Assembly: GCA_030386875.1 (NCBI GenBank)
Contig: CM059571.1
Span: 24,732,355 to 24,796,354, forward strand
From: Morinoia aosen
Lineage: Eukaryota; Arthropoda; Malacostraca; Amphipoda; Talitridae
Direction: 5' to 3'
Length of the DNA: 64,000 bases
Shown here: positions 14,801 through 20,800 of the stretch, one piece after another
Layout of the letters: the number at the start of each line of letters is the position of its first letter
Numbering within the stretch: the stretch's first letter is position 1
Program-made: the position numbers and the translations under genes
The notes under the pieces: generated by a model
What the model saw: the letters and a program-made list of their open reading frames with translations, nothing else
Told to the model about the DNA's origin: nothing
Database searches by the model: none

Positions 14801-17800
14801 GCTGGAGGGAAGATCTCGCAAATATAGTGACGATTGTATCGTTCCACTGAGTAAATCACTTAATTGTGAAGTGCTCCTCTTTGTAAGGTGGCATGACATG
14901 ACTTCCACTTTCAGCATGTTCAATAAACCACATCCGAAAATCATCTCACTGAATGCAAATTTTGTATGCTTCATTCTCGGTGTTTCAGAAGAGTCTGCAC
15001 ATAGCCACTCATCGTACCGTCTGCTAATTTTTTGATTCTTGTCAAAGTTTTTTTGTCAGAGAGAACCAAAAGCTGTCCAAATTCGTGTTTTCTTTTTACT
15101 CAGTAAAGTAACCATTTTGAACGCATGAGACAGTTTTCCTGTGTCTTTGCTGATACGAGTGGGCCTTTCCTTACTACACATGACTTGTACCAAATGTCCT
15201 GATGTACCACAGTCTTGATAGTCCATGAGGACATTTGGTACTCCACCTTTTTCACTTTAAATTAATCTAAGTCAAGTTCAATTTAATACAAGTCAAGTTC
15301 AACTTAATCGAAGTCAAGTTTGAATTAATCTGAGTCAAGTTTGAATTAATCTGAGTCAAGTTTGAATTAATCTGAGTCAAGTTTGAATTAATCTGAGTCA
15401 AGTTTGAATTAATCTGAGTCAAGTTTGAATTAATCTGAGTCAAGTTTGAATTAATCTGAGTCAAGTTTGAATTAATCTGAGTCAAGTTTGAATTAATGCG
15501 AGTCAAGTTTGAATTAATGCGAGTCAAGTTTGAATTAATGCGAGTCAAGTTTGAATTTATGCGAGTCAAGTTTGAATTTATGCGAGTCAAGTTTGAATTT
15601 ATGCGAGTCAAGTTTGAATTTATGCGAGTCAAGTTTGAATTTATGCGAGTCAAGTTTGAATTAATGCGAGTCAAGTTTGAATTAATGCGAGTCGAGTTTG
15701 AATTAATGCGAGTCGAGTTTGAATTAATGCGAGTCGAGTTTGAATTAATGCGAGTCAAGTTTGAATTAATGCAAGTCAAGTTTGAATTAATGCGAGTCAA
15801 GTTTGAATTAATGCGAGTCAAGTTTGAATTAATGCGAGTCAAGTTTGAATTAATGCGAGTCAAGTTTGAATTAATGCGAGTCAAGTTGAATTAATGCGAG
15901 TCAAGTTTGAATTAATGCGAGTCAAGTTTGAATTAATGCGAGTCAAGTTTGAATTAATGCGAGTCAAGTTTGAATTAATGCGAGTCAATTTCAAATTAAT
16001 CCGAGTCAATTTCAAATTAATCCGAGTCAATTTCAAATTAATCCGAGTCAATTTCAAATTAATCCGAGTCAATTTCAAATTAATCCGAGTCAATTTCAAA
16101 TTAATCCGAGTCAATTTCAAATTAATCCGAGTCAATTTCAAATTAATCCGAGTCAATTTCAAATTAATCCGAGTCAATTTCAAATTAATCCGAGTCAATT
16201 TCAAATTAATCCGAGTCAATTTCAAATTAATCCGAGTCAATTTCAAATTAATCCGAGTCAATTTCAAATTAATCCGAGTCAATTTCAAATTAATCCGAGT
16301 CAATTTCAAATTAATCCGAGTCAATTTCAAATTAATCCGAGTCAATTTCAAATTAATCCGAGTCAATTTCAAATTAATCCGAGTCAATTTCAAATTAATC
16401 CGAGTCAATTTCAAATTAATCCGAGTCAATTTCAAATTAATCCGAGTCAATTTCAAATTAATCCGAGTCAATTTCAAATTAATCCGAGTCAATTTCAAAT
16501 TAATCCGAGTCAATTTCAAATTAATCCGAGTCAATTTCAAATTAATCCGAGTCAATTTCAAATTAATCCGAGTCAATTTCAAATTAATCCGAGTCAATTT
16601 CAAATTAATCCGAGTCAATTTCAAATTAATCCGAGTCAATTTCAAATTAATCCGAGTCAATTTCAAATTAATCCGAGTCAATTTCAAATTAATCCGAGTC
16701 AATTTCAAATTAATCCGAGTCAATTTCAAATTAATCCGAGTCAATTTCAAATTAATCCGAGTCAATTTCAAATTAATCCGAGTCAATTTCAAATTAATCC
16801 GAGTCAATTTCAAATTAATCCGAGTCAATTTCAAATTAATCCGAGTCAATTTCAAATTAATCCGAGTCAATTTCAAATTAATCCGAGTCAATTTCAAATT
16901 AATCCGAGTCAATTTCAAATTAATCCGAGTCAATTTCAAATTAATCCGAGTCAATTTCAAATTAATCCGAGTCAATTTCAAATTAATCCGAGTCAATTTC
17001 AAATTAATCCGAGTCAATTTCAAATTAATCCGAGTCAATTTCAAATTAATCCGAGTCAATTTCAAATTAATCCGAGTCAATTTCAAATTAATCCGAGTCA
17101 ATTTCAAATTAATCCGAGTCAATTTCAAATTAATCCGAGCCAAGTTCAAATTAATCCGAGCCAAGTTCAAATTAATCCGAGCCAAGTTCAAATTAATCCG
17201 AGCCAAGTTCAAATTAATCCGAGCCAAGTTCAAATTAATCCGAGCCAAGTTCAAATTAATCCGAGCCAAGTTCAAATTAATCCGAGCCAAGTTCAAATTA
17301 ATCCGAGCCAAGTTCAAATTAATCCGAGCCAAGTTCAAATTAATCCGAGCCAAGTTCAAATTAATCCGAACCAAGTTCAAATTAATCCGAACCAAGTTCA
17401 AATTAATCCGAACCAAGTTCAAATTAATCCGAACCAAGTTCAAATTAATCCGAACCAAGTTCAAATTAATCCGAACCAAGTTCAAATTAATCCGAACCAA
17501 GTTCAAATTAATCCGAACCAAGTTCAAATTAATCCGAACCAAGTTCAAATTAATCCGAACCAAGTTCAAATTAATCCGAACCAAGTTCAAATTAATCCGA
17601 ACCAAGTTCAAATTAATCCGAACCAAGTTCAAATTAATCCGAACCAAGTTCAAATTAATCCGAACCAAGTTCAAGTTAGTCCGAGCATAGTTCAAGTTAG
17701 TCCGAGCATAGTTCAAATTAGTCCGAGCATAGTTCAAATTAGTCCGAGCATAGTTTATATTAGTCCGAGCATAGTTCAAATTAATCAGAGCCAAGTTCAA

Positions 17801-20800
17801 ATTAATCAGAGCCAAGTTCAAATTAATCAGAGCATAGTTCAAATAAATCCGAGCATAATTCAAATAAATCCGAGCATGGTTCAAATATCCGAGCATAGTT
17901 CAAATTAATCCGAGCCAAGTTCAAATTAATCCAACCCTCAGTTGAGTTATAAAATGACATCATAATTTGTTAATTTGAGTTTTTGTGTTGAATATGTATC
18001 TATTGGATGTTATAAGCAAGACTGATTTTGAGGATTTATTTACACTCATAGATGTTTATGTACGTGAAATTCCACTTTACCACATATATGAAATCAAATA
18101 CATGCAAGTACAAAATATTATCATTGGATGATATGTAGATTTAATCTTTAAAAAATATACAAATGCTATTCAGTGAGTACTAATGTCCAATTCCGTTTAA
18201 TTACAATTTATACTTGTACATTATTACCCAGATGCATTCCTGCATTAGCAATAAAAATGTTGCCATGCATTCTAATTTCGTGTAGTCAATTTGATGAAAT
18301 GTAGGATCCACTTACAATACACAATAATAATACAAGAAACAATGTTTCTAACTTAATACTGATTCTATTTGTGTGTGTGTTCACAATTCAATAGATAATA
18401 CTTTCAAGACTTAAATATTATGAAATGAATATTATAAAAGTTATTGAAGTCTTAAAAGTATTATATATTGAATTGTAAACGCACACAAAATCAGTAGTGA
18501 ATTAGAAACATTGTTTCTTGTATTATTATTGTGTATTGTAAGTGGATCTAACATTTCTTCACATTGACTACACGGAATTTGAATGGATGGCAACATTTTA
18601 ATTGCTAATGCAGGACTGTATCTGGGTAGTAATGTGCAAATATAAATTGTAATTAAACGGAATTGTACATTAAGTACTCAGTGACTTGCACTTGTCTACA
18701 TAGATTGTCTGAATTGAAAATCTTTTAAAGATTAAATCTACATATCGTCCAATGATAATATTGTGTACTTGCATGTATTTGATTTCATACATGTGGTAAA
18801 GTGGAATTTCACATATATAAATATCTGTTAGTGTAAATAAATCCTCAAAATAAGTCTTGCTTATAACATCCAATAGATACATATTTAACACAAAAAACTC
18901 AAATTAACAAATTATTATGTCATTTTTTAACTCGACTGAGGGTTGGATTAATTTGAACTTGACTTGGATTAATTTGAACTTGACTTGGATTAATTTGAAC
19001 TTGACTAGGATTAATATGAACTTGACTCGGATTAATTTGAACTTGACTCGGATTAATTTGAACTTGACTCGGATTAATTTGAACTTGACTCGGATTAATT
19101 TGAACTTGACTCGGATTAATTTGAACTTGACTCGGATTAATTTGAACTTGACTTGGATTAATTTGAAGTGAAAAAGGTGTAGTTGTGCAAAATGAGGGAA
19201 GGCAAATTTGTATCGGCAAAGACACAGGAAACGAAAAAAAAAATTTTCTTTGCTTCAGGGGAAACATTGCCGTCACATCCTTTCAGCTCCAACCAGACCG
19301 TATGAACAAATGATCTCGTAACATGTAAAAAGTTAGATTCTTAAATCACCATGTTTTGCAGTTACAACAATTGCCCTTTCATTTCCTGGGTTAACATCTT
19401 GCTCTGAATCGGAAATCTGTATTAAAAAAATAATATAAATTTTGGTGAGGAGAGTGTAATGAATTAAAAATGGCATATTGTCAGATATTCCTTGCATTCA
19501 GTAGTTCATAAGACTAACTTGTTTCTTTTTATAAATTATATTCAAGACGAAAAGTATTTTCACCTTGCAGGTTACATTTCCCTTCTTGCCGATATCTGAT
19601 AATTATGGGGTCACACCCACTCATATCACTGCACACATTCATGTATCAGGACTACCGCACCAGATATTGGTAGGACTTGCAAGCGTGGCACTGGGCGTGC
19701 AGTGCTCAGAGAGCTTGGCATTGCAGGGGGAGGCGGCGGCGGCGTTGCGATGCGCATGACGGCGTTTGAGGAGCCCACGCGGGACCCTGACGTGTGGGCG
19801 CCGCCTCCGCCTCGTGACCCTGACGTCTGGCCCCCGCCCACCAACGCTGACCACAGGTGCTGCTTCTGCTTGGGGTGTTGGTGTGTTGGGTGGAGGTGGG
19901 GATGTTAGTGTGTTGGGTGGATGTGGGGATGTTGGTGTGTTGGGTGGGGGTGTTAGTGTGTTGGATGGGGGTGTTGTGTGGAGATGTTGTCCGTGGTGTT
20001 GTGTGTGGGTGTTGCTCGTGATGTTGAGCGGTAGAGATGAACAGGTAGTGTTGGGTGGAGAAGGTGCAACCAAATAATGAAATGCTCTTGCATGGATCAT
20101 GTTGAAAGATCGTCAATGTTTTTATTGCCGTTATTGCGCTTACCGTAATTCCACAATTTTACTACTTTCAATGACGTTAATATCAATACTGTCAAGCCGC
20201 TAATTTATGAGATTAATTCCACAAAACTCTTTCTCGTTTAGAAATAGCTCAGTGGAGTTGAAATCCACAGCAAAGGTGCATCTGTGTCCCCGTTATTGCA
20301 ATGGGGATGTGTTCTAAGTTTGTGCCTCGGTTCACAGCCGCTCGTGTCCGCAAGTGCGTCCCACACGGGGACCGCGCCAGAAGGACGCGCCCAACAAGGC
20401 AGGCGGCCGCAACACCGCTAGCAAGGCGGGGCCTGGCAAGAAGCCCGACACCTCCAAGTCCGGCACTCCTAAACGCGATGAGAAAAAGAAGAAAGATAAA
20501 GATTCGAAGAAAGAAGATGTTAGTTGCCATAGCATAACAAGGTTTTTTGTACTATTGCTTAGAGTTCTACATTGCATCTGTGTGTGTTCTTGTTCATGTC
20601 GGAATTGATTGTTTTTGTAGTGAAACAGAATGAAAGTAATCTTTTATTTCAAAAGAGCATAAGAAATCATGTAATTTTTCGGGTTCTAAACCTTATTGCT
20701 AGCATGTTGGGAAGATTCAGATGCTAGTATGTATGAATCATTGTATTTTTTGTGTAATTTTAATTCGTTTACCCATTTTTTACGCTACATACACATCATT

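Follow-up and report, generated by a model that had tools for sequence, protein, structure and literature searches.

Results

FB1 and its position in the katanin-p60 region

In the present study we analysed a window of 64,000 nucleotides from the amphipod Morinoia aosen (assembly GCA_030386875.1, contig CM059571.1, positions 24,732,355 to 24,796,354, forward strand), in which a fold-back element, here named FB1, is flanked by two matches to a katanin-p60 query (Table 1). A sister fold-back, FB2, ends 110 bp ahead of a further match to the same query at 28212. We propose that FB1 very probably represents one copy of a non-autonomous fold-back DNA transposon, abundant in this genome and of an IS630/Tc1/mariner-type clan, which inserts at the TA of CTAG, originated in an FB2-like manner and underwent local growth of its arrays. 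An earlier sequence-only reading had placed the element in an intron, and its position between the katanin-p60 matches agrees with this.

The FB1 copy of the window extends over 15241-19182 and consists of inverted ends flanking two opposed arrays and a palindromic core. Its left end, CTCCACCTTTTTCACTT, begins at 15241 (CTCCACC), and the inverse sequence, whose last letters are GGTGTAG, finishes at 19182, so that the borders given by the sequence-only reading (15240..19183) were right to 1 bp. Elements of the FB1 type are bounded by CTACACCTTTTTCACTTCAAATTAATC ends, and the element proper, CACC...GGTG, measures 3,936 bp (15244-19179). The left array keeps a period of 21 over 15259-17932 with 127.5 copies and 97% matches, a length taken as assembled, in which collapse or misassembly is possible. 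Identical neighbouring units stand in runs of 54, 15, 11 and 8, and these runs point to a recent local multiplication of single units. The core, of about 1.0 kb, shows 84.9% identity over 1,048 columns when 17932-18945 is compared with its own reverse complement, and it folds as a single hairpin of -408 kcal/mol with the loop near 18430 (DNA parameters; no shuffle control at more than 1,000 bases). Both the opposed 21-bp arrays and the inner stem of about 490 bp, as first read from the letters, are thus borne out by measurement, self-alignment and folding. The further proposal that the whole unit could close into one hairpin holds for the core and for the inverted orientation of the arms, but the arrays are highly unequal, about 117 left units have no partner and pairing throughout the unit is impossible. 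With long inverted ends and internal tandem repeats able to pair, the window copy belongs to the fold-back structural class.

Table 1. Positions in the window of FB1, FB2 and the neighbouring katanin-p60 matches.
Feature	Position	Strand	Remarks
katanin-p60 match, residues 1-55	11882-12046	+	43.6%, E 8e-10; upstream of FB1
FB1, left target-duplication copy	15242-15243		reads TC where TA is expected; CTA in 15/17 family copies; CTAG in empty sites of other copies
FB1, left terminus CACCTTTTTCAC	15244-15255	+	inverse of right terminus
FB1, left 21-bp unit array	15256-17932	+	128 units in fixed register, 23 distinct
FB1, inner palindromic core	17933-18944		two arms of ~490 bp, centre near 18430; homologous core in 17/17 other copies measured
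FB1, right 21-bp unit array	18945-19167	-	10.6 copies, 97% matches; inverted relative to left array
FB1, right terminus	19168-19179	-	inverse of left terminus
FB1, right TA target-duplication copy	19180-19181		followed by G (TAG)
katanin-p60 match	21472-21834	+	E 4e-19; downstream of FB1; more matches up to 34267
FB2, sister-subfamily fold-back	27198-28099		902 bp; TA duplication at 27196-27197 and 28100-28101
Transposase frame start, first 19 codons	27643-27699	+	near FB2 centre; tblastn 94.7% over residues 1-19, 18/19 identical

FB1 belongs to an abundant family

When the host genome was searched with the FB1 core, the 40 candidates scored out of 2,854 first-look candidates gave 81 matches. 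The FB1 end (33 bp, up to 2 mismatches) occurs at 3,049 genome places (1,549 + 1,500) and the reversed pattern at none; a stretch of the arm (42 bp, up to 3 mismatches) occurs at 818 places (397 + 421), again with 0 for the reversed control. Twenty other loci (L009-L028) were fetched. They had been picked for their core match, so that the core is present in 20/20 by construction, and in each of them an end was also recognised by a 30-bp pattern allowing up to 7 mismatches. Their flanks are mostly different; L009 and L010 share theirs, as do L017 and L019.

Palindromes and long arrays are prone to misassembly, and the length of the left array is known from the assembly alone; an artefact, either a mirror join or a collapsed repeat, is nevertheless scarcely credible as an explanation of FB1. 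The core recurs in the 20 other loci with their mostly different flanks, intact empty paralogs exist at three sites, and the mean difference between the two arms of one copy is about 10%. Chance and a mirror join were both rejected in view of these loci, of the 3,049 ends against 0 for the reversed pattern and of the intact empty paralogs of three copies. The sequence-only reading had named a mirror join, or the lack of any other copy, as what would overturn it, and the genome contains both other copies and empty sites.

The 17 other copies in which both ends were recognised are 1,148-2,286 bp long and have a conserved core; length, array and core-alignment measurements omit L009, L010 and L015, where the right end was unrecognised, and the table of sites also omits L019. 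The largest single array among these 17 copies has 40.7 units, against 127.5 in the window copy. The arrays vary within the family, and the huge size of the left one is peculiar to the window copy. A further 17 pairs of FB1 ends, chosen by eye from 100 listed exact end places, span 1,027-3,277 bp, and the window copy is the longest among the copies measured.

Cores from 18 copies show 93.9-96.9% identity to their majority consensus and a mean of 91.4% between copies. The mean identity of the two arms within a copy is 0.903, while that between copies is 0.913 for left arms (LL), 0.915 for right arms (RR) and 0.898 for left with right (LR), as calculated for 17 copies after removal of L019 as a duplicate of L017 and with each copy oriented according to its match to the window, a choice that raises LL and RR. 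Strong gene conversion within copies is unsupported in these 17 copies, because the arms of one copy are no more similar to each other than arms of different copies. In one locus, L037, a single FB1 arm is followed by other sequence, in which a transposase match was sought and none was found.

Insertion at the TA of CTAG

The left ends of FB1 read CTA in 15 of 17 copies, the exceptions being the window copy (CTC) and L021 (CTG), and the right ends read TAG in 14 of 17 (exceptions L022, L025 and L028). In order to find empty sites, the joined flanks of 17 FB1 sites were searched and the best 40 candidates were scored. Matches close to full length across the junction were obtained at three sites (L011, L014 and L022), together with two partial ones at L021; among these best 40 candidates there was no empty paralog of the window copy's own site. 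The empty paralogs of the three sites show a single uninterrupted CTAG at the junction in 6/6 sequences read. The element proper is therefore CACC...GGTG, and the TA is duplicated on insertion, the preferred target being CTAG, often inside ACTAGT. Nine joined sites of A-type sister elements (see below) were also searched, and that of L032, which lies in an abundant repeat, is 100% identical along its entire length to 40/40 scored places. A 2-bp duplication of TA, as in the IS630/Tc1/mariner superfamily, was found at all the sites checked, which number 3 of 17 for FB1 and 1 of 9 for the sister. The exact borders and target duplication, for which comparison with empty sites had been advised, were in this way obtained from paralogs of three other copies' sites, and together with the family copies they support a mobile fold-back whose non-repetitive stem is enclosed by satellite-like arms.

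The same termini could be read as a Spy-like (PHIS) insertion without target duplication, in which CTA...TAG would belong to the element. When CTACACC is counted as the end no duplication is visible in the flanks, and Spy elements lacking target duplications are described in the parts of PMC4482050 and PMC11304231 drawn on here. Such a model predicts the loss of C-TA-G from empty sites, which instead keep it once (6/6 read; 40/40 scored at L032); furthermore, a base other than the usual one follows the right TA in L030, L039, L025 and L028, as expected of target sequence. We consider this alternative extremely improbable, and an insertion of the Spy/PHIS type (no duplication, AAATTT target) was rejected on account of the TA duplication in CTAG at the empty sites.

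FB2 derives from a transposase-bearing element

FB2 spans 27195-28102 with its target-site letters and has the 12-bp terminus and the 21-bp array plan of FB1. Its stem led to two elements of 2.8 kb, in L034 (63-2892) and L035 (83-2910), each with an open frame of 388 residues. Taking the autonomous element in L034 as reference, all four FB2 copies read (L030, L031, L032 and that of the window) run from position 1 to 496 of that element, continue through 7 bp and return in inverted orientation from 461 to 1; in the copy of the window the right arm has an extra internal deletion. The first codons of the transposase are retained at the centre of these copies. The junction is fixed: the genome has 19 occurrences of its sequence, of which 16 are exact, and the control gave 0. 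FB2 thus derives from the end of a transposase-bearing element, and its layout fits one inverted duplication of that end, the product of which was subsequently transposed. FB2 is the younger of the two, FB1 representing an older fold-back family.

The protein of these elements, transposase A, matches Pfam DDE_3 (E 1e-23) and scores 111.8 bits with the NCBIfam IS630 model, whose cut-off is 100. Its triad, picked by eye from the motifs, is D186, D268 and E304, with 35 residues between the last two. We have left transposase A unassigned to the DD35E/Traveler family because an equal signature is found in groups of different origin, according to the portion of PMC8533490 consulted. In a protein search of the genome, in which 106 matches were scored out of 1,818 first-look candidates, 32 of the 106 span residues 1-388 at 98-100% and 28 of these 32 have no stop. 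Another 38 scored matches, with 57-59% identity to A, form a subfamily B, whose protein is, to judge by this identity, probably also an IS630-type transposase; weaker matches were obtained as well. The 5' end of one B element begins with the 12-bp terminus of FB1 and A, followed by 12.5 units of 21 bp. In this clan, arrays of 21-bp units are present within the inverted ends even of autonomous elements. At L044 an FB1 array contains the right end of a copy of A, whose left end was unrecognised; A was therefore active after that FB1 copy had inserted. In element A itself a further CTACACCTTTTAACTTAGCTTCCAATTG end, which is degenerate, lies about 270 bp inward of the right end (around 2620 in L034 and 2638 in L035) and is perhaps the trace of an older right terminus.

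The nature of transposase A bears on whether FB1, like Drosophila FB, Tetris or Galileo, is a fold-back belonging to the Mutator or P superfamily, in which case about 7-10 bp of target would be duplicated. The overall plan is alike, with long inverted ends containing tandem repeats and an inner domain. At the empty sites read, however, the duplication is TA in CTAG, and the termini and array plan match those of elements with a DDE_3/IS630 transposase, the Pfam scan of transposase A giving neither a THAP nor a MULE match. This origin is very improbable. A Mutator or P type fold-back was rejected, both in its Tetris-like form, since TA was found in place of an 8-10-bp duplication, and in its Galileo form, since the transposase whose element shares the 12-bp terminus is DDE_3 without the THAP of a P-type transposase.

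Termini and units shared by FB1, A and B

The first 12 bases are common to FB1, A and B, as is the motif TTCAA.TTAA in both units compared. Over the first 42 array bases, FB1 and A agree at 32 positions, FB1 and B at 26 and A and B at 33, against maxima of 27, 24 and 27, respectively, in 20,000 letter shuffles, which lose the 21-bp period, so that 42 bases are not 42 independent positions. When A is compared with three B-type pieces the arrays align, and the 5' leader yields only matches of up to 19 bp. That unit length and motif are kept between subfamilies whose proteins are about 57-59% identical suggests that the units may be bound by the transposase.

A wider search for the IS630 family (101 scored of 7,771) gave a further group matching profile positions 19-279, for example at C7:8064242-8065006 and C5:40206951-40207715. 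Searches for relatives gave 0 in viral_contigs and 1 weak match in phage records. Twenty-one of the 101 scored matches, the strongest among them, lie within C27 at 60.15-69.09 Mb; they reach 237 bits, and several have no stops. The locus C26:20550914-20551795 was noted together with this stretch. The 9 Mb of C27 may represent a large insertion of bacterial or endosymbiont DNA, or else wrongly scaffolded bacterial sequence.

Other repeats in the window

The katanin gene region contains, at 22589-22957, a piece of a transposase of the mariner type (Transposase_1, E 2e-5). At 29639-30697 there is a 69-bp tandem array (15.3 copies, 97%), whose minus strand is open in two frames as a 23-residue repeat. 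Arrays of 25 bp and 20 bp, rich in GTTAGG-like words, occupy 43137-43622, 43802-44856 and 48509-48613, falling between exon matches of V-ATPase subunit A (minus strand, 36026-49672). Finally, the uninterrupted frame of 559 residues at 54277-55956 contains a domain of reverse transcriptases (RVT_1, E 7e-36) and is read as LINE-like (long interspersed nuclear element).

Discussion

We propose that FB1 moved by cut and paste, probably through an IS630/Tc1/mariner-type transposase, related to those of A and B, that would recognise the CACCTTTTT terminus together with the 21-bp units. Such an enzyme would insert FB1 at the TA of CTAG with duplication of the TA. The fold-back itself would be born when one end of an element, comprising the terminus, the array and the adjacent sequence, is copied in inverted orientation and replaces the rest of the element, perhaps by template switching in repair after excision, and the resulting fold-back would be mobilised in trans. 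The inverted-copy step is visible in the anatomy of FB2. FB1 may well have arisen as FB2 did, and this part of the proposal rests on analogy because the FB1 core resembles neither A nor B nor transposase A. After insertion the arrays would lengthen or shorten locally through slippage or unequal exchange, by which the left array of the window copy may have grown to about 127 units.

Several points weigh against this interpretation, in addition to the period lost in the shuffles. Among the 106 scored of 1,818 first-look candidates there was no transposase gene with the exact termini and array of FB1, and the upstream ends of four non-A transposases (L046 and L053-L055) all carry the B-type array, not that of FB1. 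No significant similarity links the FB1 core to element A, element B or transposase A. The empty state was checked at 3 of the 17 FB1 sites only, and the two empty paralogs of the L011 site show a 3-bp gap relative to the joined flanks, a few bases from the junction.

The lack of a match between the core and A, B or transposase A would also be expected if the inner stem of FB1 were captured DNA of the host or of another element, foreign to the parent transposon. In FB2, however, the stem is the 5' end of the parent, and the absence of a match says little when the parent of FB1 has not been found; capture is in our view unlikely. It is conceivable, if on the whole doubtful, that the 21-bp units are two-turn transposase-binding modules and that array length tunes the attraction of transposase. 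Fold-backs, as paired arrays free of other cargo, might then be the fittest parasites of the clan, with arrays running away into satellite-like DNA at single loci, as in the window copy.

The sequence-only reading had compared the element with the FB elements of Drosophila. These have long inverted ends made of short tandem repeats and fold back, but their termini and target duplication are unlike those of FB1, and we know of no fixed palindromic core of the FB1 kind among them. The target of Galileo, another fold-back of Drosophila, is not known to be CTAG. With its duplicated TA in CTAG and the termini and arrays of an IS630/DDE_3 clan, FB1 stands apart from Drosophila FB. Among the nearest known systems are those of the IS630/Tc1/mariner superfamily (IS630 of Shigella; ISY100), which have the TA duplication in common with FB1 and the DDE_3 domain and IS630 model in common with the transposase of its sister elements; the differences are the eukaryotic host, the 21-bp arrays in the inverted ends and the fold-back derivatives. 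IS630 prefers the TA in 5'-CTAG-3', as stated in the title of Tenzen and Ohtsubo (1991), listed among the references of PMC2170065.

The layered plan, which had been thought unfamiliar, has precedents. In Galileo 2RT copies, as portrayed in the sections of PMC3573991 used here, the terminal inverted repeats (TIRs) are extended by subterminal 'F1' or 'F2' sequence, one copy having 441 bp of F1 duplicated and inverted, and the copy with the longest TIR combines an F extension with tandem repeats. The 2RT and F-subfamily elements of Drosophila thus resemble FB1 in the variable tandem repeats of their TIRs and in the lengthening of the TIR by an inverted subterminal duplicate; they differ in having a P-superfamily transposase and a unit of about 210 bp that is present two or three times. 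Tetris of Drosophila virilis is, like FB1, a fold-back with outer (flanking), tandem and inner TIR domains, and its tandem units expand to satellite-like arrays of up to 66 copies; it differs from FB1 in its unit of 220 bp and its duplications of 8-10 bp, and its authors, in the excerpts of PMC4079207 consulted, found no transposase source or autonomous partner. Nearly complete copies are known for Galileo.

Layered fold-backs being already known in Galileo and Tetris, FB1 is a variant on that plan. In the open-licence literature searched we found no report of IS630/Tc1/mariner fold-backs whose ends consist of tandem units; the present elements extend tandem-repeat ends to this superfamily and show that an IS630-type clan targeting CTAG exists in a eukaryote. 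One genome contains autonomous IS630-type elements with an intact transposase, a derived fold-back with a fixed junction, and an older fold-back family whose ends number in the thousands and whose arrays change freely. The coexistence of all three makes the birth of fold-backs and the growth of satellite-like arrays inside transposon ends directly testable.

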